Virus record (IMG/VR): IMGVR_UViG_3300021960_000634
Coordinates: 1 to 21,119 of that record
Direction: 5' to 3' (one strand)
Length of the DNA: 21,119 bases
Origin: a virus
A program made the position numbers and the translations under genes. A model generated the notes under the pieces. The model was not told the origin of the DNA, made no database searches, and saw only the letters and a list, made by a program, of their open reading frames with translations. Of this stretch, positions 2,786 through 16,151 are shown piece by piece (the first letter of the stretch is position 1; the number at the start of each line of letters is the position of its first letter).

Positions 2786-3490
2786 ATGCCATTGCCTACA
2801 CTGGTTGTGCCAGAATATGAGTGCAACCTTCCCAGCGGACAGATCGTAAAATATAGACCCTTCCTGGTTCGTGAAGAGAAGTTGCTTTATATTGCAATGG
2901 AATCTGGCGATCAGAAGGAGATGATCAAAGCGGTTAAAGAGATCATCAAAAATTGCACCAGTGTCAAGAAAGTTGACACACTGGCAACCTTTGAAATCGA
3001 GTATCTCTTCCTTCGTATTCGTGCAAAGTCCGTGGGTGAGATCAGTGAGTTTAGAATCACTGCACCAGATGATAATGAGACTGCAATTGATGTTGAACTT
3101 AACCTTGAAGAAGTTCAAATCTCGGTGCCAGATAATCATTCTAAGGTAATTAGAATTACCGATGATGTGACTCTGACTATGAAATATCCTTCAATCGATA
3201 CATTTGTGAAGAACAACCTTTCCGATAATCCTGGACTGGACGACATCTTTACTCTTGCTGCAGATTGTATTGAATCTATTGCAACAGGTGAAGACATTGA
3301 AGAAGCAAAGAACTACAAGAAGTCGGAACTCCTTGAATTCTTTGAAGGTATGAACTCTGGACAGTTCAGAAAGGTTCAGCAGTTCTTTGAGACTATGCCT
3401 AAACTTTCCCACACTATTGAGGTATACAATCCCAAGACTGAAGTGAAGAGTGAGGTTGTCCTTGAGGGTATGGCTGCTTTTTTCGCATAG
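2786..3490 (+). CDS. gp26: Baseplate hub assembly chaperone gp26 (T4_baseplate family)
   Basis: This acidic 234-residue protein begins MPLPTLVVPEYECNLPSG and contains KYRPFLVREEKLLYIAMESG, typical of the T4 gp26 family, which helps assemble the baseplate hub. The C-terminal half is helical (ELLEFFEGMNSGQFRKVQQF, FFETMPKLSHTIEV) and ends MAAFFA. T4 gp26 has 208 residues, so the length fits. The last codons read GCT TTT TTC GCA TAG. They form a classic -1 slippery heptamer with a GAGGG Shine-Dalgarno-like element about 9 nt upstream, so a minority of ribosomes may continue into the next frame (separate entry). It probably uses the late promoter at 2752-2759. Confidence 0.85.
   Translation: MPLPTLVVPEYECNLPSGQIVKYRPFLVREEKLLYIAMESGDQKEMIKAVKEIIKNCTSVKKVDTLATFEIEYLFLRIRAKSVGEISEFRITAPDDNETAIDVELNLEEVQISVPDNHSKVIRITDDVTLTMKYPSIDTFVKNNLSDNPGLDDIFTLAADCIESIATGEDIEEAKNYKKSELLEFFEGMNSGQFRKVQQFFETMPKLSHTIEVYNPKTEVKSEVVLEGMAAFFA
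3464..3490 (+). promoter_or_regulatory. Candidate programmed -1 ribosomal frameshift site
   Basis: The heptamer T TTT TTC lies at 3478-3484 in the phase needed for tandem -1 slippage. It is followed four bases later by the gp26 stop (3488-3490). A GAGGG element at 3464-3468 sits about 9 nt upstream, the distance at which internal Shine-Dalgarno sequences stimulate slippage in bacterial dnaX. The -1 frame is open from 3466 to the TAA at 3676 and includes the whole downstream ORF. Slippage would add RIALAHNSL and then the 55 residues of that ORF, giving a protein of about 297 residues. Confidence 0.6.
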
Positions 3491-3510
3491 CCCTTGCCCA
3501 CAATTCGTTG

Positions 3511-3678
3511 ATGAATATCTATGAAGTGAACTTTGCAATGATGCAGTATCACAAGTACAGTCTCACAGAACTAGAAAATATGATGCCGTGGGAAAGGGAT
3601 GTGTATGTGAATATGCTGATTCGATATCTTAGAGAAGAAGAAGCTCGACAAAAGCAACAACAAAGGTCGTCACTTTAA
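3511..3678 (+). CDS. Small hub-assembly ORF at gp51 position; possible frameshift extension of gp26
   Basis: From the ATG at 3511 this encodes 55 residues: MNIYEVNFAMMQYHKY, then LTELENMMPWERDVYVNM and LIRYLREEEARQKQQQRSSL. It is a charged, helical peptide. The PWERDVYVNMLI core recalls the C-terminal part of tail-assembly chaperones of other phages, which are made as frameshift fusions. T4 has gene 51 right after gene 26, but T4 gp51 is much longer, so the name rests on position only. It may be translated alone, but no good ribosome binding site precedes the ATG, which fits expression as a gp26 extension. The stop overlaps the next start (TAATG, 3676-3680). Confidence 0.65.
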   Translation: MNIYEVNFAMMQYHKYSLTELENMMPWERDVYVNMLIRYLREEEARQKQQQRSSL

Positions 3679-6119
3679 TGGCAGATACACAGGCACCACC
3701 TAAACAGGTAAAAATTAGATCCTTCCTGGCGATTCAAGATAAAGCATCGACAGGAGGGATTGGTGCTGACCCTATAAAGTCGATGACAACTGCCATCAAC
3801 AGGATGGGGTTTATCGTAGAAGATATTGGTAAACTGATAACAAGTATTACAGCGACTCAAGTGATGCCTGACTTTCAGGCAATGCAAGCAGCGCAGTTGG
3901 AACGAGACAAGAAAGCAGAGAAAGATATTGAACTGGGTGCTGATGGTAAGGACGTTGAGAAAGGTATAGACGAAAGTAAGATTGAAAAACCCAAGATGGG
4001 ATGGTTGGACAGACTGTTGCAACCATTTGTTTGGTTGGCAAAGACTGCACTAACTTGGTTCGTACTCGATTGGTTAAGTAAACCTGAGAACACACAAACC
4101 ATCAAGGTTTTTTTCAGGGTTGTGGAGGTTTGGTTTAAAACCCTAGCGAAGGTTACTTTTGCTGCGGTTGATCTTATAATGAGTGCCTTTGGGGAAAAGA
4201 ATCCCGTTATTGGTGCACTCAAATTGGTTGCTGGTATCGGTGCATTGATGCTTGCAGATAGGATACTGAAACCGTGGAAATTGATTGGTGATGTTCAAAA
4301 ATTAGGTAACTTTGTCAGTGGTTCAATTAAGAAAGGTGCGAAGGGATCTGCGGTTGCAAAAACGAGAGCGGATATTGTAAGACAGAGAGCAAAGAACATT
4401 GCTCGGATTCGTCAGATGCGAAAACTCAAGGCATTTGGCGGATCTGCTATGCGTGGTGCTGGTAGGTTCCTTAAGGGTGGTGGTTTATCTGCACTTGCTG
4501 GAGTTGGAGCAGCAGCAGGACATATGGCATCTGGATCTTCAGTTCAGGTTGCTGTAGGTGCTGGCGTTGGTGCTACTCTTGGTGGTCTTGCAATGTCAGC
4601 ACTGCTGACACCGATTCTTGGTCCTTTTGGTCCTATTGTGGGGCAATTGGTTGGATCATTTATTGGTGAAAAGATTGGTGCCTTTATGGGAGATGCGATT
4701 ACTCCTATTATTGAACCACTGAAGAGATATTTCACCGAACTTGCACTGCCTTTGTTCAATGCATTCCTGAAACCAGTTGTTGAACCATTCATTGAACTGT
4801 TTCGGGAAATACAAAAGGTATTTGGCATAATTGGCGACTTCCTCAAACCTCTGGCAGATACTGCTCTGCAGAAGATGTTTGAGTTCCTTAACTCACCAAT
4901 CATTCCTAGTCTATTTAAGAAGGTGCAGGATTGGACCGCCAGATTTATGGATATGGTCAACAATCCAACGAAGTATTTTGGTGATGTTCTGAGAAATATT
5001 GGGGACAAGGCACAAGATGTTGGTTCCGATCTCACTGCTGGTATTCAGACTGCCCTTGGCATTAATGCTGGTTTGACAGAGGCGAAGAAGAAAGAACGAG
5101 AAAAAGCAACTCAACTCGCTAATATGAAGAGTGAACTTGTGAAGGATGAGAGTGATCTTAAGTATGCTAAGGATAAACTGGCATACCTTAAGAAGGTCCA
5201 AAAAGAAAAGGGACCAGAACACCGTATTATGCTCCCACCACATCAAGATCCCTTCCACACAGTTGGTGAGAGGATTAAGATTGAAGAGCAAAATATATCA
5301 AACATCAGTAAGCGAGTTACTGACGCAAAAACAAATATTGGTATCAAAACAAAGGAACTCGCATCTGCAAAGGCACTTGTAAAATCTTACGAGGAAGCAA
5401 CTGCAGGTCAACTTGGTCCTACTACTGCTGGATCAGTCATTTTCCCCCTGCCTAAAGGTAGATATGCTGGTGGTGCTGGACAGAAATTCGGTGACAGTAG
5501 ATCCTATGGTGGTCACGCTGGTCTTGACCTGACGGAAACTCCTCCTTTTGGTAAAGATGCTCAGATTCCTGTTGTTGCTGCTATTGGTGGTACAGTTTTA
5601 AAGGAAAAATTTAACAGCAGCGTTAACTACCTTGCTGGTATGATGATCAAGGGTGAAGATGGTTATGATCAAAGATATCTCCATATGCTACCAAGTGTAA
5701 AACCTGGAGATAAAGTTTATGCTGGTCAGAGAATTGGTAAATTGCTCGACCTTGGCAGAGTTGGATATGGCACTGGTGCTACCCACTTACACTTTGAGGT
5801 CTATAAGAGTGGAAAAAGTAAGTATCTAGATCCCCGTAAGGTTTATCCAACTCTGTTTAATAGACCCAATCAACATAGAAATATAGTAAAACCTCAGACG
5901 AAACCAGCACCTGCTGCTACACCTGAAATAAATAATGGAAGAACTGCAGCAGAGACCACCGAAAAATTGAAAGAGACAGCCAGAGGAACAAGACCTGCAC
6001 CTACTGGAGCAGCGGTAGCACCTGTTGTGGTGCAACCAGTTATTAGAAGATCGAATACCAGAGGTGGTGGAACAGAGGTTATTGACCCAGTAGCAGCAAC
6101 AGGGATTAGAGGAGTTTGA
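3678..6119 (+). CDS. Tape-measure-like tail protein with C-terminal M23 peptidase
   Basis: This is an 813-residue protein. Residues 1-110 are helical and charged. Around 115-160 lies a hydrophobic region with VLDWLSKPENT, shared with the next gene. Residues 265-340 are Gly/Ala-rich and hydrophobic. Amphipathic helices follow, then a coiled coil near 465-575. Residues 590-735 form an M23 (LytM-type) endopeptidase with H613 and D617 (HAGLD), H669 (YLHM), and H703/H705 (HLHFE), so all expected zinc and catalytic residues are present. The tail after 735 is Pro/Ala-rich. Position between the gp26/gp51 region and gp27, size and helical content suggest a tape-measure or hub protein, which in T4 is gp29. 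The peptidase would open peptidoglycan during DNA injection. No direct similarity to T4 gp29 is visible. Confidence 0.75.
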   Translation: MADTQAPPKQVKIRSFLAIQDKASTGGIGADPIKSMTTAINRMGFIVEDIGKLITSITATQVMPDFQAMQAAQLERDKKAEKDIELGADGKDVEKGIDESKIEKPKMGWLDRLLQPFVWLAKTALTWFVLDWLSKPENTQTIKVFFRVVEVWFKTLAKVTFAAVDLIMSAFGEKNPVIGALKLVAGIGALMLADRILKPWKLIGDVQKLGNFVSGSIKKGAKGSAVAKTRADIVRQRAKNIARIRQMRKLKAFGGSAMRGAGRFLKGGGLSALAGVGAAAGHMASGSSVQVAVGAGVGATLGGLAMSALLTPILGPFGPIVGQLVGSFIGEKIGAFMGDAITPIIEPLKRYFTELALPLFNAFLKPVVEPFIELFREIQKVFGIIGDFLKPLADTALQKMFEFLNSPIIPSLFKKVQDWTARFMDMVNNPTKYFGDVLRNIGDKAQDVGSDLTAGIQTALGINAGLTEAKKKEREKATQLANMKSELVKDESDLKYAKDKLAYLKKVQKEKGPEHRIMLPPHQDPFHTVGERIKIEEQNISNISKRVTDAKTNIGIKTKELASAKALVKSYEEATAGQLGPTTAGSVIFPLPKGRYAGGAGQKFGDSRSYGGHAGLDLTETPPFGKDAQIPVVAAIGGTVLKEKFNSSVNYLAGMMIKGEDGYDQRYLHMLPSVKPGDKVYAGQRIGKLLDLGRVGYGTGATHLHFEVYKSGKSKYLDPRKVYPTLFNRPNQHRNIVKPQTKPAPAATPEINNGRTAAETTEKLKETARGTRPAPTGAAVAPVVVQPVIRRSNTRGGGTEVIDPVAATGIRGV

Positions 6120-6123
6120 GTAA

Positions 6124-8568
6124 ATGGCACCCATCACTAGCCCCAAACTAAGATTTTATAAGTTTGTTACTGGTCCTAAGAATACTGGTGCGACGATTGT
6201 CATTGGCGATAAGCAAGTTGCTGGTGCAGATTTCTCGCAGACATTAAATGCAATTAATTCCCTGGGAGCAACTGTTAATAGTATCGGTGTTTTGCTTCAG
6301 AATCAACTGAAAGCACAGCAGGCGCAAGCAGCAGAAGTTGCACGGCAGAGCCAGTTTGTAAAGGATCAGCAATCCGAACAGCAAGTAGAGACCCAGAAAA
6401 GCAATATTGGTGAAAAGATTGGTGGACTCATACAATCAGTTGCTCCATCATTCTTAGAATATCTGAGTAGACTTTTGAAGACTCTGTTGATTTATGGTGT
6501 CCTTGACTGGTTGAGCAAACCCGAGAATACCAAAAAAATACAAGTGATGTTTGAACGCATTGGTGCGTTCTTTAAGGGAGCTTGGGAGTTTTTCAACAAA
6601 ACAATAAACTTTATAGGTGGTGCCTGGAAACAGGCATTTGGTGATGGTAGCGACTGGTTAACCCGAATTAAGGGTGCAGCGAAACTTCTAGGTGTTGCTG
6701 GTGCAGCACTTCTTGGACTAGGTTTCCTCAAAAATCCACTGGGAACCATAAAGGCATTTGGCAGTGTCTTAAGACTTGTTGGTGGTGGGGTAATGAACCT
6801 AGGCAAGTTCCTAGGTGGTAATGTAATTGGTAGAGCAATCCAGAGTGCTGTCCAAGGGGTGATGGCATATCAGGATGTGATGAAGGATGAGTCAATTCCT
6901 CAGGAAAAGAGACAGGCTGCTGCCATAGGTGCTGGTGCTGGTGCTACGATTGGTGGCACTGCCCTTGGTGCTATTGGCAACGCTGTTGCTGGTCCCATTG
7001 GTGGTATGATCGGCAATGCCCTTGGCGGATTTCTTGGTAAAGAAGCAGGTAAGTTTTTTGGTCCTATTGTTGGAGACTTCTTCAATGCAATTGGGAAGAT
7101 CTTCAATAAGATTGGGCAGTTTATTAATTCATTCCTGAAACCATTAACTGATGCCATCAGGGACTTCTTCAAAGCACTTGGTCCAGCGATCAATAAAATG
7201 GTTGATTGGATTAAACCACATATGCCAGCACTGCTAAAAGTTGCTGAGTTTATGGGTAATGTGGTATTTGGACCACTGATTATGATGCTGAAGGCGGTTA
7301 CCAACATTCTTAAATGGATCACTGGTACTGGACCTGAAGATCTCATCAAGGGGGTCAAAGCGAGTGTTAAAGGTGCAAAAGATGCTGCAGGTGCTGGTCT
7401 AGATGCACTTGGAAATACATTTGCACCACCTGCTCAGGCAGCAGAAGCACCTGTTGGTTCTGCCGATGCCAACAGAATGGTTCAATCGATGGGATTCTCC
7501 GCTGATCAGTGGGCAACCTTTAGAGAAACCGTTGGTGCAATTGAATCTGGTGGTGTATATGATAAAGCTGGTGGTTCTGGGGGACATTATGATGGTAGGT
7601 ATCAGTTGGGTGCTGACGCTAAAACTGATGCTGCTAAGCAACTTGGGGTAAAGAACCCTGGACACACTGCTGCTGCCAGGGAGAAGTTCAGGAAGAATCC
7701 TGAGATGCAGGAAGCATTCTTTGCTGCATTCACTAAGGCAAATCATAACTACTTGATGGGCAATGCTAAGTACAAGAGTGCAACTCCAGAAAGAAAACTG
7801 CAGATTCTTGGTTATGCCCATAATCAGGGTATGGGTGGTGCAGAAAACTGGATGAGAACTGGGCAAGTTGGTTCTGACGGATTTGGCACCAAAGGCACCA
7901 AGTACACCGATGCTATTGCTGCAGCATTTAGAAGGCAGGGCAGATCTGCAAGTAAGGGTGGTTGGATCTCTGGTCCTATGTCTGGGTATCCTGTATCACT
8001 TACGGGTAAGACAGTTGACTTTATCGGTCACGGTACTGAGTACGTTGCTAAGAGATCTGCTGGTGGATTTGTTATTCCATTTGATACTCCAGACACTCGT
8101 AAGAATCCTGGTCTTACTGCAAAACGAATGCAGGAGGCACGAAGCGGTGGTTATCTGAAGTCTGCTGGTGGTCCTATTCCTGAGATGAGTTTCGGTGGAT
8201 TTGTCAAGAGTATTGGTAATATGATCGGTGGTGCTATGAATAAGATGGCACCAGTTGTGAAGGCAATTACTCCTGTTGCATCAGCGATTGTTCCTGGTGC
8301 TGCACCTGGATTGCTTGCTGGACAAAAAATTATAGATATGGTACAAAAAGTACAGGAAGCAACAGCACAAGTTGAGTCTGCAAATCTTGAGGGAGCAGTT
8401 AAAATGATTGTTCTTGATGTGATCGAAGCACCTGGAGTTGGCGGTGGTGGTGATTCTGCCACTCCTCCTATGGTAATGCCTCAAAAGCAGAATCCAGCTA
8501 ACAAGTTCCTGCAGAGCAGATTTGGTTTTATGGGTGAAGCATCTACAATCTTAAGTAACTTCTTCTGA
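6124..8568 (+). CDS. Tape-measure-like tail protein with lysozyme/transglycosylase-like domain
   Basis: This 814-residue protein is a paralogue of its upstream neighbour: same length, the motif VLDWLSKPENT near residue 120, and a Gly-rich block (GAGAGATIGGTALGAIGN) near 265. Residues 455-610 form a lysozyme-like domain with catalytic-type Glu474 in VGAIESGG, then GRYQLG and ILGYAHNQGMGGAENWM. A following GGWISGPMSGYPVSL and VDFIGHGTEYV motif is common near the C-terminus of tape measures. It could set tail length or be a hub protein that degrades peptidoglycan on infection. The start has a good AGAGGAG ribosome binding site at 6108-6114. The stop overlaps gp27 as TGATG. Lytic transglycosylase and lysozyme chemistry cannot be told apart by eye. 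Confidence 0.75.
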   Translation: MAPITSPKLRFYKFVTGPKNTGATIVIGDKQVAGADFSQTLNAINSLGATVNSIGVLLQNQLKAQQAQAAEVARQSQFVKDQQSEQQVETQKSNIGEKIGGLIQSVAPSFLEYLSRLLKTLLIYGVLDWLSKPENTKKIQVMFERIGAFFKGAWEFFNKTINFIGGAWKQAFGDGSDWLTRIKGAAKLLGVAGAALLGLGFLKNPLGTIKAFGSVLRLVGGGVMNLGKFLGGNVIGRAIQSAVQGVMAYQDVMKDESIPQEKRQAAAIGAGAGATIGGTALGAIGNAVAGPIGGMIGNALGGFLGKEAGKFFGPIVGDFFNAIGKIFNKIGQFINSFLKPLTDAIRDFFKALGPAINKMVDWIKPHMPALLKVAEFMGNVVFGPLIMMLKAVTNILKWITGTGPEDLIKGVKASVKGAKDAAGAGLDALGNTFAPPAQAAEAPVGSADANRMVQSMGFSADQWATFRETVGAIESGGVYDKAGGSGGHYDGRYQLGADAKTDAAKQLGVKNPGHTAAAREKFRKNPEMQEAFFAAFTKANHNYLMGNAKYKSATPERKLQILGYAHNQGMGGAENWMRTGQVGSDGFGTKGTKYTDAIAAAFRRQGRSASKGGWISGPMSGYPVSLTGKTVDFIGHGTEYVAKRSAGGFVIPFDTPDTRKNPGLTAKRMQEARSGGYLKSAGGPIPEMSFGGFVKSIGNMIGGAMNKMAPVVKAITPVASAIVPGAAPGLLAGQKIIDMVQKVQEATAQVESANLEGAVKMIVLDVIEAPGVGGGGDSATPPMVMPQKQNPANKFLQSRFGFMGEASTILSNFF

Positions 8569-11395: not shown

Positions 11396-11470
<75 letters not shown>

Positions 11471-11487
11471 ACTCAATGGTTTTCCAT

Positions 11488-11495
11488 TATAAATA
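11488..11495 (+). promoter_or_regulatory. Late promoter for the HNH gene
   Basis: This is a perfect TATAAATA ending 26 nt before the HNH ATG. By T4 geometry, transcription would start near 11501-11503, inside the hairpin described next. Confidence 0.7.
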
Positions 11496-11517
11496 ACTCA
11501 GTGTATATGCTGAGTTA
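11494..11517 (+). promoter_or_regulatory. Leader hairpin covering the HNH ribosome binding site
   Basis: TAACTCAG (11494-11501) pairs perfectly with CTGAGTTA (11510-11517), with an 8-nt loop TGTATATG. The 3' arm contains the GAG that would serve as Shine-Dalgarno 6 nt before the ATG at 11521. Read-through RNA carries both arms; RNA from the late promoter would lose most of the 5' arm. Confidence 0.6.
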
Positions 11518-11520
11518 ACA

Positions 11521-11796
11521 ATGGCAACAGATAGAAAGATCAGGGATAAAGAAGCTTCTGCTAAACGCAGAGCACGAAACAAGGAGTATATGCTGAGTAA
11601 AATGACTCCCTGTGTAAAGTGTGGTTTCTTTCATCCTGCTGCTATGGACTTTCACCATAGCGATCCTTCTACCAAGGACAAAGGTGTATCTGAATTAGTC
11701 AGAAACGGTTATGCTACACAGCGTATAGTCGAAGAGATTGAGAAATGTGTATGCCTTTGTTCTAATTGCCATCGCATCTTACATTCGGGAGATTAG
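11521..11796 (+). CDS. Small HNH endonuclease between two tRNAs
   Basis: This is a 91-residue basic protein. It has a CVKC zinc knuckle, then MDFHHSDPSTKDKGV with the HNH His pair, and CVCLCSNCHRILHSGD, which supplies the second zinc cysteines and the final catalytic His. This is the compact free-standing HNH form common in phages and often associated with homing. It lies between tRNA-Asn and tRNA-Val; its stop TAG (11794-11796) is made of positions 8-10 of tRNA-Val, so the gene fits tightly against the tRNA. Expression is probably late and gated by the leader hairpin. Confidence 0.85.
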   Translation: MATDRKIRDKEASAKRRARNKEYMLSKMTPCVKCGFFHPAAMDFHHSDPSTKDKGVSELVRNGYATQRIVEEIEKCVCLCSNCHRILHSGD

Positions 11797-11858
11797 CTCA
11801 GCGGTAGAGCGATTGCCTTACAAGCAATAAGTCACTGGTTCGATCCCAGTATCTCCCA
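11787..11858 (+). tRNA. tRNA-Val (TAC)
   Basis: Acceptor GGGAGAT pairs perfectly with ATCTCCC. The anticodon stem ATTGC/GCAAT holds loop CTTACAA. The T-arm is ACTGG-TTCGATC-CCAGT, and the discriminator A is at 11858. The first 10 bases overlap the HNH reading frame. No CCA is encoded: the late promoter starts at the next base. Long identical blocks with tRNA-Asn (TAGCTCAGCGGTAGAGCG and CTGGTTCGATCCCAG) suggest close relatedness. Confidence 0.95.
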
Positions 11859-11866
11859 TATAAATA
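11859..11866 (+). promoter_or_regulatory. Late promoter for gp5
   Basis: This is a perfect TATAAATA directly after the last base of tRNA-Val and ending 26 nt before the gp5 ATG (11892). Confidence 0.75.
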
Positions 11867-11891
11867 AATTTGTTAGATTTTATCGTGATTA

Positions 11892-14324
11892 ATGTCCGAG
11901 ACCATCAATACTATTGGCAGATCTGATGTAATGGGTCGTGATGGCTTCACTTGGTGGGTAGGTGAAGTTGAATCGATCGAAGATCCTCAGCAACTGGGTA
12001 GAGTAAAAGTACGAATCATCGGTTGGTATACTGGTGCTGGAGGTAAAGAGGCATATACAACATCTCTTCCGACAGAATCTCTTCCGTGGGCAATCTGCAT
12101 ACTTCCTACGGATCAACCTGGAATTAAGAATACTGGAACTACAACCGAACTTCAAGTAGGTGCACAAGTTCTTGGATTCTTCCTTGATGGTGAAGAAGCA
12201 CAACTTCCTTGTGTTCTTGGTTCATTCCGTGGATTTAGAAATGCTGCTGACAAAAAGACTGGCAGTGGTGATGCTAACGACAGTGATGTTCCTAAGACAA
12301 CTGTTGCTGATGCTGCAGAAGCACCGAAACTTCCTACACAGGCACAAGATGCTGCAGGTAAAGAAGTTCCTGGAGGAGCACCATTTAATAAGACTGGTTC
12401 TGCTCCCGCAAACCCATCAGGCGGTGAGGCGACTGATAGGGGTGCTCTACCTGCCGCTGCACAGGCAGTTCCTGGCAACTATGCGTCAAACCCTCAAGTG
12501 CCCCCTACAGAGGCACAGGGCATCGCTGACGGGTCACAGGGACCTGCTGCAGAGGGATTTGAACGTGATCTGGAGAGAATGCTCACTGAGGTTGGTACGT
12601 TTGCTGCTGGACTTGGATCCGATCCTGCAGGAAATTTAGTATCTCTGATCACTGGTAAGAAAGTAAGTAATAAACTGTTGAAGAATGCGATCAAAGGTAT
12701 CAACCTGTTCATTGCGAATGGTATTTCGGGCATTATGTCCTGGATGAAGGAAGTTCTTGCAAAACAGATTGAGAAGATCATTTCTGCGATCACAAAGTTC
12801 ATCACTAATATCATTCCTCTGGGGATTATCAATGCCATTCTTCAATTGGCAGATTTCATCTTCAGTTTGTTCTGTGGTTTTGAGGGACAGTGGATTATTA
12901 GTCTTGTACGAGATGCATTTAATAGTACAGCAGCATTTGCTCAGCAAATGTCTAGTTTCATCGTACAAAAAGTATATGATGCTATTCCCGCCCAGGTAAA
13001 AACAACCACTGCTGCTATTGTCCAGAAAGTGCAGAAGGGTATTCAGCAGGTAATGCAACTGGGTCGCACACTGCTTGCTGCTATCAAGGTCGTTAAGAAT
13101 GTAGCAGGGCAGTTCAAGGAAATGGGTAAGGCAATGGATACCCTTTTCCAATTTGATTTCTCTAAGATTAATTGGGGTAATCTTGTTACCTTGATCATCA
13201 ACCTTCTCAAGGCACTCTTACCGAAGAAGGATTGTGGAAGGAAAATACGAGGACCAAAACTAACATTCTGGTTACCACTTCTAGGGGCATCTGACTGTGC
13301 CACAGTGCCAGAGTTTATGCAGAGGAAGATTGAGATTAATGCTGGGAATGTAATTCCACAAGGTGATTACATATCATCTCTGTATCAGAACTTGCTGCCG
13401 AGTATGATGCAAGTTACCACATTTATGAATGGTGCTTCAGTTATTCAGGATAATAATCCTGGTAAAGAGAAGACCATTGTTACAGATGCTGGTGGGCAGA
13501 CGAAGATTTCAACAGCACAAGGTGATACCCATTATAACCAACCTGGGAATGAGACCAAGATCGTTGGTGGTGATAAGTGCACCACAGTTAAAGGTAATCA
13601 TTGCGTAACTATTGAGGGTGATTATACTCTCAAGGTTATGGGTGACTTTAACCTGGAAGTTCTTGGGGCAAAAAATGAGCATTGCTCCAATGGTGTTGGT
13701 GTACAGGGTAAGGATGGTACACAACCTGGAGATAAGCAGGCAAAGTCTGCACAAACAATTGCAGCAGACCACGAGATCAACTATCAAGGTAACTGGGGTA
13801 TTCAAGCAGCAAACGTTACTCTTTCTGCGATCAACTCACTTGACCTGAACGCAAGTTCAATGTCCGTCAAGGCAACGTCTCTGATGAATTCAATTTCTGG
13901 TGAGATTGTGAATGAGTGTGCCTGGCAAACCAATCTGGTAAACAACGTAGTGTTTAATATGATTGGTATGCTGAATCCTCTTCCTGGTATTTCTGGTCGT
14001 CTGTCAATCATTAAAGGTGCAGATGTCACTCTTACCTCCGAAGGTCTTGGTTCTGCCCTTCCTGCTACTCAGGTTCGTATGACAGTTTCCGCTGCTCAAC
14101 CTGGCGGTATTGTTGATATTGTTACTGGTGCAACTGGTGGTCACGGTACACTGGTTACTTGTGCATCTGGTGGTATTGGTGAGTTTGTAACAGGTGGTGG
14201 CGGTGCTATCGTTAACCAAGTTACCTCTGGTGCAGCATCATACTCAGTTGGTACTGGTATTATGTCGATGGGATGCTCTGTCGGTCCTTGCCAAATCTAT
14301 GGTCTGCCCTTGCTGCTGAACTGA
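11892..14324 (+). CDS. gp5: Baseplate central spike protein gp5, without lysozyme domain
   Basis: This is an 810-residue protein. Residues 15-115 form the OB-fold hub domain of gp5/VgrG (WWVGEVESIEDPQQLGRVKV, LPWAICILPTD, VGAQVLGFFLDGEEAQLPCV, LGSFRG). A linker rich in Ala, Pro and Gly follows (120-220). Residues 225-480 are helical and hydrophobic, including KFITNIIPLGIINAILQLAD, in place of the T4 lysozyme domain. Residues 534-595 carry spike-type beta-helix repeats (THYNQPGNETKIVGGDKC, TTVKGNHCVTIEGDYTLKVM, GDFNLEVLG). The C-terminal 70 residues are Gly-rich beta (GGIVDIVTGATGGHG). Its partner is gp27; together they form the cell-puncturing hub. Lytic function appears to have moved to the two tape-measure-like proteins. 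Late promoter 11859-11866. Confidence 0.85.
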   Translation: MSETINTIGRSDVMGRDGFTWWVGEVESIEDPQQLGRVKVRIIGWYTGAGGKEAYTTSLPTESLPWAICILPTDQPGIKNTGTTTELQVGAQVLGFFLDGEEAQLPCVLGSFRGFRNAADKKTGSGDANDSDVPKTTVADAAEAPKLPTQAQDAAGKEVPGGAPFNKTGSAPANPSGGEATDRGALPAAAQAVPGNYASNPQVPPTEAQGIADGSQGPAAEGFERDLERMLTEVGTFAAGLGSDPAGNLVSLITGKKVSNKLLKNAIKGINLFIANGISGIMSWMKEVLAKQIEKIISAITKFITNIIPLGIINAILQLADFIFSLFCGFEGQWIISLVRDAFNSTAAFAQQMSSFIVQKVYDAIPAQVKTTTAAIVQKVQKGIQQVMQLGRTLLAAIKVVKNVAGQFKEMGKAMDTLFQFDFSKINWGNLVTLIINLLKALLPKKDCGRKIRGPKLTFWLPLLGASDCATVPEFMQRKIEINAGNVIPQGDYISSLYQNLLPSMMQVTTFMNGASVIQDNNPGKEKTIVTDAGGQTKISTAQGDTHYNQPGNETKIVGGDKCTTVKGNHCVTIEGDYTLKVMGDFNLEVLGAKNEHCSNGVGVQGKDGTQPGDKQAKSAQTIAADHEINYQGNWGIQAANVTLSAINSLDLNASSMSVKATSLMNSISGEIVNECAWQTNLVNNVVFNMIGMLNPLPGISGRLSIIKGADVTLTSEGLGSALPATQVRMTVSAAQPGGIVDIVTGATGGHGTLVTCASGGIGEFVTGGGGAIVNQVTSGAASYSVGTGIMSMGCSVGPCQIYGLPLLLN

Positions 14325-14338
14325 TCCTGTGCTATGAT
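14310..14338 (+). promoter_or_regulatory. Sigma70-type promoter after gp5
   Basis: TTGCTG (14310-14315), a 17-nt spacer, and TATGAT (14333-14338) preceded by an extended -10 TGC. Predicted start near 14345, about 20 nt before the next ATG (14364). It shares TGTGCTATRATT with the promoter at 17208-17235. It overlaps the gp5 end and probably opens an early or middle unit. Confidence 0.5.
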
Positions 14339-14363
14339 TCTGGGGTACACACCACTGTCCCCA

Positions 14364-14549
14364 ATGGATACCTACCTGGATTACGTCTGGATCGATTTCC
14401 CCAAGCGTACCGTAAAAATTCAAGATAATGAGGGACGGATTGAAACCGTTCAATGGAAATGGGATGAAGAGGGTGCTGAAGGGTTTCACGAGACTGTGGA
14501 ACTTATTCAGGAATCTGTTCCCGCTGAACAACGTTGTTACTTACTATGA
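14364..14549 (+). CDS. Small acidic protein, function unknown
   Basis: From ATG 14364 this is 61 residues: MDTYLDYVWIDFPKRTVKI, then QDNEGRIETVQWKWDEEGAE and GFHETVELIQESVPAEQRCY. The frame also opens at ATG 14334, but that codon lies within the -10 hexamer of the candidate promoter (14333-14338), so 14364 is preferred. No family is recognised. The WIDFPKRTV and QWKWDEE segments suggest a small beta-alpha fold. It overlaps the next gene by ATGA (14546-14549), so the pair is probably translationally coupled. Confidence 0.6.
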   Translation: MDTYLDYVWIDFPKRTVKIQDNEGRIETVQWKWDEEGAEGFHETVELIQESVPAEQRCYLL

Positions 14550-14848
14550 ATACATTTATTAAAGTTACAGTAGAGGAAGTCGAAAAGAACTTTGACTTCT
14601 GTTTGGATCTGGTTGAACGTGGTTACACATTCTTGATTCAAAGCGAGAATGGTAATGTGATTATGGCACCAGTTGGTAAACCTGCAGGAATTGATCAGGC
14701 AGATCTTGAACTGCTTGAATCACAGAAAGCAGCACAGTATGCTCCTATGCAACCACCCCCGCCTATTCCTGGAGTCACGTTGCCTTCTGATCGAGAAGTT
14801 CAGGGTTACGTCAATGATACACTGGAAGAACTGACCAAGGATTTCTGA
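14546..14848 (+). CDS. Phd/YefM-like antitoxin-fold protein
   Basis: This is a 100-residue protein. Residues 5-45 (IKVTVEEVEKNFDFCLDLVE, then RGYTFLIQSENGNVIMAPVG) follow the Phd/YefM antitoxin pattern: a strand, the helix pattern E..KNFD..LDLVERG, and a hairpin ending in Ala-Pro. Phd proteins bind DNA through this part and neutralise a toxin through a C-terminal tail. Here the tail is a Pro-rich linker and an acidic end (QGYVNDTLEELTKDF). No recognisable toxin (Doc, YoeB) is adjacent; the upstream 61-residue protein is the only coupled partner. It could be an orphan antitoxin against host toxins, or a DNA-binding regulator. The start ATG overlaps the preceding stop. Confidence 0.55.
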   Translation: MNTFIKVTVEEVEKNFDFCLDLVERGYTFLIQSENGNVIMAPVGKPAGIDQADLELLESQKAAQYAPMQPPPPIPGVTLPSDREVQGYVNDTLEELTKDF

Positions 14849-14863
14849 TATATAATTACATCT

Positions 14864-15337
14864 ATGGATCAGGAACGTTTTCTCAACCTTTTAGTACATC
14901 ACTGGCACAATTTAAAACAAGCACAAATGTACCCATCTTCCTTTGCTTATGTTCATTACCATTGGTATTGGGAAGATGGTGTTCTAAAGTCTAGACAATG
15001 GTATGACTGGAACAAGGAAGTCTATCGTCATCGTCAGCATAAAGTTAGATCGGAATCTGGAAAGATTCTTCTAGAGACTTATGATGGTGAAACAAGGATG
15101 GGAGACTCAATCTTTACAGAGTCGGAATTTGGTTTCACTGGTGAAACCGAAAAAGGATGGATTGATCATAAAGGTAGACGAGTAGAAGGTACATTTAAAC
15201 TTACTGAGGAATTATTTGAAACCAGTGACAAGGGATGGGATAAAGACGGAACCTTGCTCTGGGGATCAAAGAAAGGACCATTCAGTTTTATTCGATGTAC
15301 AGAATCTATTCCGAGTTCCGTTATCTTACCAAAGTAG
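14864..15337 (+). CDS. cpeT: CpeT/CpcT-type phycobiliprotein lyase
   Basis: This is a 157-residue protein. The N-terminus FLNLLVHHWHNLKQAQMYPS and FAYVHYHWYWEDG match the T-type lyase opening. The C-terminus GTFKLTEELFETSDKGWDKD then GTLLWGSKKGPFSFIR matches the CpeT block that ends in D....WGS..GPF.F.R. T-type lyases attach bilin chromophores to phycoerythrin or phycocyanin beta subunits; phage versions are known auxiliary genes. The N-terminal helical part of some host CpeT proteins is missing, so it is shorter than the host form (about 195-200), as is usual for phage copies. It is preceded by TATATAATT, a possible -10 too close to the ATG for a normal leader. Confidence 0.85.
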   Translation: MDQERFLNLLVHHWHNLKQAQMYPSSFAYVHYHWYWEDGVLKSRQWYDWNKEVYRHRQHKVRSESGKILLETYDGETRMGDSIFTESEFGFTGETEKGWIDHKGRRVEGTFKLTEELFETSDKGWDKDGTLLWGSKKGPFSFIRCTESIPSSVILPK

Positions 15338-15549
15338 GTCTTGCAAGGATTTATTACTTAAATGGTCTGCCATTTACTTTTGATGAGATTGAAGAGTATA
15401 CTCAAGATATGGTAGAATATGCTATGTCTCAAGACTATCTTTCAATTGAAGACTTGCTCAGATCTAGTTCATATTTGATTTCTGAGCAATGTCATCCTAT
15501 AATCTTTGAACTTGAAGAAGTGACCTGTGATGAGGAACTACCGTTTTGA
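15295..15549 (+). CDS. Small hypothetical protein overlapping cpeT
   Basis: This 84-residue acidic protein starts at ATG 15295, inside the last 43 nt of cpeT: MYRIYSEFRYLTKVGLARIY, YLNGLPFTFDEIEEY, then helical and ending LEEVTCDEELPF. No family is recognised. The overlap is long but similar overlaps occur elsewhere here. Its stop overlaps the next gene's TTG start (TTGA at 15546-15549). Confidence 0.55.
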   Translation: MYRIYSEFRYLTKVGLARIYYLNGLPFTFDEIEEYTQDMVEYAMSQDYLSIEDLLRSSSYLISEQCHPIIFELEEVTCDEELPF

Positions 15550-15749
15550 ATAAATACATTTTTGGTGGTCACGAATTATCATCCATAAACGTATGCCGAC
15601 TTCTAAGTGAATTGGAAGGATCATATTCATTTCTTAAATACTTAGGATTTGAGGAAGATATGAATACTATTGACGAAATGAAGAAACGGTATTATACTTT
15701 ATACTTCAAGTTGTCCAAAGAAGAACGCCTCCGTAGCTCAGCTGGATAG
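15546..15749 (+). CDS. Small hypothetical protein, TTG start, running into tRNA-Thr
   Basis: This is a 67-residue frame from TTG 15546, coupled to the previous stop. It reads NKYIFGGHELSSINVCRLLS, ELEGSYSFLKYLGFEEDM, then TIDEMKKRYYTLYFKLSKEE. A helical fold is likely. The last residues (RLRSSAG) are encoded by the first 23 nt of tRNA-Thr, so the true functional end is uncertain. No known family. Confidence 0.5.
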   Translation: MNKYIFGGHELSSINVCRLLSELEGSYSFLKYLGFEEDMNTIDEMKKRYYTLYFKLSKEERLRSSAG

Positions 15750-15800
15750 AGCAACGGTTTTGTAAACCGTAGGTCGTCGGTTCAAGTCCGACCGTGGGCT
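15727..15800 (+). tRNA. tRNA-Thr (TGT), imperfect acceptor stem
   Basis: Anticodon stem ACGGT/ACCGT with loop TTTGTAA gives anticodon TGT. D-arm GCTC...GAGC and T-arm GTCGG-TTCAAGT-CCGAC are intact. Acceptor GCCTCCG against CGTGGGC has one C-U mismatch and one U-G pair; GCCCACG would pair perfectly. Discriminator T, no CCA. Confidence 0.9.
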
Positions 15801-15939
15801 TTGATACTCGTTATGCAGATAGCATAGAAGGAGATCAACTTCTACTACGGGTGTCGTCCGTAGCGTCGTAAGGGAAGAGGGGTCCACACTCTAGTCCCGA
15901 CAGGGGTTCGGCTCTACCCCTTTAACAAAAGGGCCGCCA
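15801..15939 (+). ncRNA. Hairpin-rich spacer between tRNA-Thr and tRNA-Ala; possible structured RNA
   Basis: No ORF or complete tRNA fits this 139-nt gap, but it is dense in perfect stems. They are TATGC/GCATA (15812-15826), TAGAAG/CTTCTA (15825-15844), CTACGG/CCGTAG with a 7-nt loop (15845-15863), GGGA+AGAG/CTCT+TCCC with a two-base bulge (15872-15898), AGGGGT/ACCCCT (15902-15921), and CCCTTT/AAAGGG with loop AACA (15918-15933). The last two are mutually exclusive. It could be an ncRNA, a tRNA-processing spacer or a degenerated tRNA group. Confidence 0.4.
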
Positions 15940-16012
15940 GGGGAATTAGCTCAGTTGGTAGAGCGCCTGCTTTGCAAGCAGGATGTCAGCGGTTCGAGTC
16001 CGCTATTCTCCA
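15940..16012 (+). tRNA. tRNA-Ala (TGC)
   Basis: Acceptor GGGGAAT pairs with ATTCTCC and includes the G3-U70 identity pair. Anticodon stem CCTGC/GCAGG with loop TTTGCAA. T-arm AGCGG-TTCGAGT-CCGCT. Discriminator A, no CCA. Confidence 0.97.
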
Positions 16013-16014
16013 CT

Positions 16015-16052
16015 GGGGAAGTAACGCTCGGTGGATAGAGAAGTGCTTCCCC
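16015..16052 (+). pseudogene. Collapsed tRNA relic (acceptor and D-arm only)
   Basis: GGGGAAG (16015-16021) pairs perfectly with CTTCCCC (16046-16052). Between them TAAC and GCTCGGTGGATAGAG look like tRNA positions 8-9 and a D-arm; the anticodon and T-arms are missing. It sits between two intact tRNAs with the same orientation. It may also simply act as a processing hairpin. Confidence 0.45.
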
Positions 16053-16060
16053 TCCCCATT

Positions 16061-16132
16061 GGGAAATTAGCTTAGGGGTAGAGCACACGACTGATAATCG
16101 TGAGGTCGGTGGTTCAAATCCACCATTTCCCA
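16061..16132 (+). tRNA. tRNA-Ile (GAT)
   Basis: Acceptor GGGAAAT pairs perfectly with ATTTCCC. Anticodon stem CACGA/TCGTG with loop CTGATAA. T-arm GGTGG-TTCAAAT-CCACC. Discriminator A at 16132, no CCA. Confidence 0.96.
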
Positions 16133-16151
16133 CTTTTATTTTGGCGAAAAT

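Follow-up and report, generated by a model that had tools for sequence, protein, structure and literature searches.

The question raised by this locus is whether gp26 and the small open reading frame at the position of gp51 are two genes, or a single gene from which 2 products are made by a −1 ribosomal frameshift. We analyzed the locus in a viral DNA stretch of 21,119 nucleotides (IMG/VR record IMGVR_UViG_3300021960_000634, hereafter the window), in which gp26, the frameshift elements, and the 2 neighboring genes lie on the plus strand. gp26 (positions 2786–3490) encodes 234 amino acids followed by a TAG stop codon, and its product, which would be the short form of a tail assembly chaperone, matches PF12322 (E=4.2e-68) and phrog_150 (E=3.2e-73). 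The 3' end of the gene reads GAG GGT ATG GCT GCT TTT TTC GCA TAG. This contains the slippery heptamer T TTT TTC (3478–3484), with TTT (3479–3481) and TTC (3482–3484) as its zero-frame codons and the stop codon (3488–3490) one codon further on. No stop codon interrupts the −1 frame between 3466 and 3675, a TAA codon closes it at 3676–3678, and after a −1 slip reading would resume at 3484 with CGC ATA GCC CTT (R I A L) and continue to 3675. The extension formed in this way (3484–3678, 64 amino acids plus stop), which is annotated elsewhere as gp51, is the putative C-terminal domain of a long chaperone form, as suggested by its phrog_634 match, its pN/pS and its collinearity with the C-terminus of T4-type gp51. 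The predicted fusion is 297 amino acids long and carries the junction sequence AFFRIALAHNSL. Its predicted junction tryptic peptide is SEVVLEGMAAFFR, the predicted peptide right after it is IALAHNSLMNIYEVNFAMMQYHK, whose first residue is encoded ahead of any start codon, and SEVVLEGMAAFFA is predicted to be specific for the short form. A preliminary description of this DNA had already given the gp26 ending, the heptamer and its phase, a −1 frame open from just before the site to 3678, and the junction peptide, all of which agree with our direct reading of the sequence.

The composition of the window was considered next to these features. The heptamer occurs 3 times in the window versus 6 expected, which is not significant alone, TTTTTTCNNNTAG occurs once versus 0.07 expected, and the extension was open in 0.9% of mononucleotide shuffles. 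The case for a frameshift site thus rests on conservation, the heptamer frequency alone being unremarkable. We therefore rely on 61 loci collected from viral contigs, together with further phage records (Synechococcus, Prochlorococcus, Stenotrophomonas, Aeromonas, Acidovorax, Desulfovibrio, Rhizobium, and Vibrio phages). Removal of genes with at least 90% amino acid identity left 32 representatives, 30 of them with a locatable site. In all 30, down to approximately 23% identity, a T TTT TTN heptamer stands 0 to 1 codons before the gp26 stop and a gp51 homologue follows in the −1 frame, so that the heptamer and phase which the preliminary description proposed to look for in related gp26 genes were retained in each. 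Moreover, gp51 was in the −1 frame relative to gp26 in every examined relative that has only one gp26-type gene and whose gene end is complete. In the 30 representatives the codon preceding the 2 phenylalanine codons always ends in T, while the residue that it encodes varies (Ala, Ser, Asp, or Asn), the heptamer being kept by synonymous choice. Using the codon usage of each gene, the combined chance of a T-ending codon followed by TTT is approximately 10^-23.7, an optimistic bound because related lineages were treated as independent. Given these relatives, a chance origin of the arrangement seems very unlikely. The 2 exceptions among the 32 representatives are the divergent Vibrio phages SD25 and K444 (loci L073 and L074), which keep the −1 relation and have GTT TTT or CTT TTT at the site; these phages may use another site or reinitiation. 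As a separate observation, many distant gp26 relatives (L066–L072) contain CxxC pairs such as CPKCGH, which resemble a zinc site that the cyanophage branch would have lost.

To assess whether the −1 frame is translated as a continuation of gp26, pN/pS was determined for the extension. Beyond its eighth codon the extension has a pN/pS of 0.28 versus 0.277 for gp26 (eleven genes), and the remaining 2 frames of the same region give 0.98 and 1.9, all values being pooled over nearly saturated pairs with related genes taken as independent in the statistics. The first eight codons after the junction gave 0.475, in a short stretch that also carries the zero-frame stop. These values point to purifying selection on the −1 frame. 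The extension also matches phrog_634, the gp51 profile, with E=1.7e-28, and this match starts with the second residue past the junction, before the first start codon available in the window.

The position at which homology begins bears directly on an alternative in which ribosomes that terminate at the gp26 stop reinitiate at TTG 3508 or ATG 3511 and make gp51 as a small protein of its own. Public records do annotate gp51 as a separate gene, and in K444, the divergent Vibrio phage with an altered heptamer, the gp26 stop overlaps an ATG codon (TAATG). However, no Shine-Dalgarno (SD)-like sequence was found before TTG 3508 or ATG 3511, the first candidate starts in the window, in agreement with the earlier remark that the reading frame at the gp51 position has no good ribosome site of its own. 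The relatives argue in the same direction: in L072, a relative from a Desulfovibrio phage, the extension lacks ATG, GTG, and TTG codons altogether, and the first start codon is codon 33 of the extension in L034 and codon 31 in L066, inside or past the conserved core. Because start codons are absent or this deep in some relatives, and because the candidate starts in the window lack an SD sequence, independent initiation of gp51 cannot be the general route. Reinitiation would moreover leave unexplained both the homology that reaches upstream of the start to the junction and the existence of a conserved heptamer and of an in-frame gp51 in T4, and we consider it very improbable.

T4 itself offers a further view of the 2 reading frames. 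T4 gp51 (249 amino acids) matches PF12322 over residues 1–201 and phrog_634 over residues 147–246, and T4 gp26 matches the short form only. When the families PF12322, phrog_150, and phrog_634 were tested, the short form matched PF12322 and the long form ran from phrog_150 through phrog_634. Comparison of the predicted fusions with T4-type gp51 by hhalign produced a single alignment across the junction (99.1%, E 5e-19). From these profile matches and the cross-junction alignment it therefore follows that T4 gene 51 corresponds to the long form, encoded in frame, and T4 gene 26 to the short form. Although homologous to the long and short forms, respectively, T4 gp51 and gp26 differ from the arrangement in the window in being encoded by 2 genes on opposite strands, divergently oriented and without a slippery heptamer. 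In fact, the heptamer was found in none of the T4-type gp26 genes, which are accompanied by a separate full-length gp51. In T4 and its near relatives the Phe-Phe pair of gp26 is retained, with TTC TTT as its codons and a purine at the end of the codon before them; T4-type gp26 proteins further away have lost the pair. The slippery site is thus missing from the genomes that encode the long form separately, a natural control. Because T4 and its near relatives write Phe-Phe without a slippery site, something other than the amino acids must keep the heptamer in the other genes.

The same comparison disposes of much of the idea that gp26 (a hub subunit) and gp51 (a catalyst) are separate hub assembly factors and that a C-terminal Phe-Phe gave rise to the heptamer by accident. 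In reviews of the T4 tail, gp26 and gp51 appear among the hub assembly chaperones (PMC3004832). Yet T4 and its near relatives write the pair as TTC TTT with no slippery site, and T4 gp51 itself includes the gp26 domain; together with the conservation of the heptamer in 30 of 30 representatives and its absence from T4-type genes, this largely refutes the idea, which we regard as the least probable of the explanations considered. We very slightly favor a history in which the −1 site, needing only the heptamer, an SD-like element, and a stop 0 to 1 codon downstream, is ancestral to the T4 superfamily, and the T4 branch replaced it by gene duplication, gp26 providing the short and gp51 the long form.

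To characterize the putative frameshift site further, we analyzed the sequences on both sides of the heptamer. The GAGGG motif that had been noted about 9 nucleotides upstream was located at 3464–3468, nine bases before the slippery site, and is a putative SD-like stimulator. Ranked against the in-frame windows of the same genes, anti-SD pairing at this position has a median within the top 3%. In front of GG, a purine is retained even where the amino acid differs: codons at this position other than those for Glu, Lys, or Gln end in a purine in 8 of 8 cases (P ~1e-4 by codon usage, on small numbers). The SD-like element therefore appears to be conserved as nucleic acid, and is possibly an addition to the known picture. 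With nested, pseudoknot-free pairing considered downstream of the site, RNAalifold found no pairs shared by 15 relatives, and single-sequence folding of the window detected no structure (z −0.22). Among the single-sequence folds, strong local hairpins stood out in S-WAM1 (z −5.7) and L040 (z −3.7) alone, and the fold of L047 was milder (z −2.5). The S-WAM1 fold is a very stable hairpin directly 3' of the slippery site (L063:4697-4772), a candidate lineage-specific stimulator with no counterpart in the window. With no conserved downstream RNA structure of the nested kind, the picture of the stimulators is incomplete.

The upstream element also helps to judge whether the ribosome or the RNA polymerase would be the slipping machine. 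Polymerase slippage on the T6 run, adding one U, would yield a transcript from which ordinary translation produces the same AFFRIAL fusion, an identical protein, and some relatives have longer runs of T8 to T9 (L053, L056). Most relatives, however, have exactly T6 followed by C, and a run of T6 is shorter than those usually required for efficient polymerase slippage. A conserved SD-like element nine bases upstream, moreover, suits ribosomes and not a polymerase. We thus assign polymerase slippage a very low probability, similar to that of reinitiation, and retain ribosomal frameshifting as the preferred explanation.

The predicted fold and the gene neighborhood were compared with those of tail assembly chaperones. 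The model of gp26 has a mean pLDDT of 86.9, and its best structural match, over about the first 85 residues, is the HK97 tail assembly chaperone 2ob9 (Z 7.5, rmsd 4.2, 82 residues), a modest match with Z <8. It is followed by 3fgx (Z 7.3) and YqbN (3klu, Z 6.6), these matches being well ahead of unrelated chains. A model of T4-type gp51 matched the HK97 chaperone with Z 3.7 and the PDB only weakly, and the fusion profile retrieved nothing relevant when solved structures were searched by sequence. In the window, gp26 follows a clear tail tube-like gene (1912–2745; PF23849 E=3.5e-6, phrog_45 E=7e-43) and precedes a gene of 813 amino acids (3678–6119), the probable tape measure protein, which has an M23 peptidase domain (PF01551 E=3.4e-13) and weak matches to tape measure PHROGs (best 1.4e-5). 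The T4 tape measure family PF25671 had no match in the window, but the control likewise matched nowhere. Two consecutive genes (3678–8568), of 813 and 814 amino acids, are both candidates for the tape measure, with weak tape measure-like PHROG matches; the first is the one with the M23 domain and the second strongly matches phage endolysin families. The TAA stop of the −1 frame overlaps the ATG of the next gene (TAATG, 3676–3680), so that only shifted ribosomes would end at the start of this probable tape measure gene, and coupling of tape measure translation to the long chaperone is conceivable. This overlap varies among relatives, with a gap of a few bases in P-SSM4. Elsewhere in the window (11396–16133), five tRNA genes (Asn, Val, Thr, Ala, and Ile) are interspersed among the other genes.

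The proposed −1 fusion of gp26 with the reading frame at the gp51 position is supported by the conserved heptamer, phase, and frame, by selection on the −1 peptide, by homology that extends up to the junction, by the lack of start codons in some relatives, and by the collinearity with T4 gp51. We are therefore confident, from these sequence comparisons, that gp26 and the −1 open reading frame are most probably one gene that specifies a tail assembly chaperone in 2 forms through −1 frameshifting. Most ribosomes would terminate at TAG 3488–3490 and release the short form of 234 amino acids. A minority, paired at TTT TTC, would slip one base back on T TTT TTC, helped by binding of GAGGG to the 16S rRNA tail, and read CGC ATA GCC and onward to 3675, producing the long form of 297 amino acids. 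By analogy with lambda G/GT, the part shared by both forms would serve to coat the tape measure protein, and the C-terminal domain present only in the long form would recruit tail tube subunits. We infer the actual shift, the ratio of the forms, and the role of the SD-like element from the sequences, and the binding of the forms to tape measure and tube from the analogy.

The slippery site of lambda is G GGA AAG, and the window gene differs from lambda G/GT in belonging to the PF12322 family and in having its T TTT TTC site almost at the stop codon. The lambda chaperone gene directly precedes the tape measure gene and yields a short form and a rare −1 extended form, and the window gene resembles it in preceding a probable tape measure gene and in its 2 predicted forms. 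In lambda, gpG and gpGT bind the tape measure and the T part recruits the tube protein (PMC5009743). The comparison with lambda made in the preliminary description holds as well. gp26 and gp51, very probably a short and long tail assembly chaperone pair, are better named as such than as separate proteins of the baseplate hub. In phage Adele and in Vandenendeviridae/Andersonviridae a poly-T −1 site is conserved where the gene for the short chaperone ends (PMC12846349). The Adele locus, with its −1 frame running without interruption ahead of the tape measure gene, resembles the window in this site and in the open −1 frame, and differs in its GTTTTT motif and in the phage families concerned. As late as 2016, a review still named T4 as an exception to G-T frameshifting (PMC5009743).

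The arrangement has already been proposed for T4-like phages, and the window gene is not new in kind. In 2022 Vladimirov and colleagues reportedly found frameshifting to be conserved in several T4-like groups, with T4 using genes 26 and 51. Tail assembly chaperone genes of T4-like phages were identified in this study (Vladimirov, Gautam and Davidson 2022, Virology 566:9-15), to which 2 later papers refer, one on short-form chaperone genes of T4-like phages that carry poly-T −1 signals (PMC12846349) and the other on separate short and long genes in some T4-like phages (PMC10274946). The idea is not new because of this 2022 publication, with whose chaperones the window gene shares both the protein families and the short/long logic. 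What the present analysis may add is the conservation of the SD-like element, the argument from start codons, and the control at codon level that T4-type gp26 provides.

These results correct the annotation of many cyanophage genomes, in which gp51 is listed separately or missed entirely, as in S-WAM1 (KU686210, L063:4700-4892), where gp51 is unannotated although the −1 open reading frame is intact. They also connect gp26 and gp51, known in T4 as hub proteins, with the general scheme of tail assembly chaperones. If the −1 site is indeed ancestral, cyanophages and T4 would form a natural pair for comparing how the ratio of the chaperones is determined in the presence and in the absence of frameshifting, respectively.
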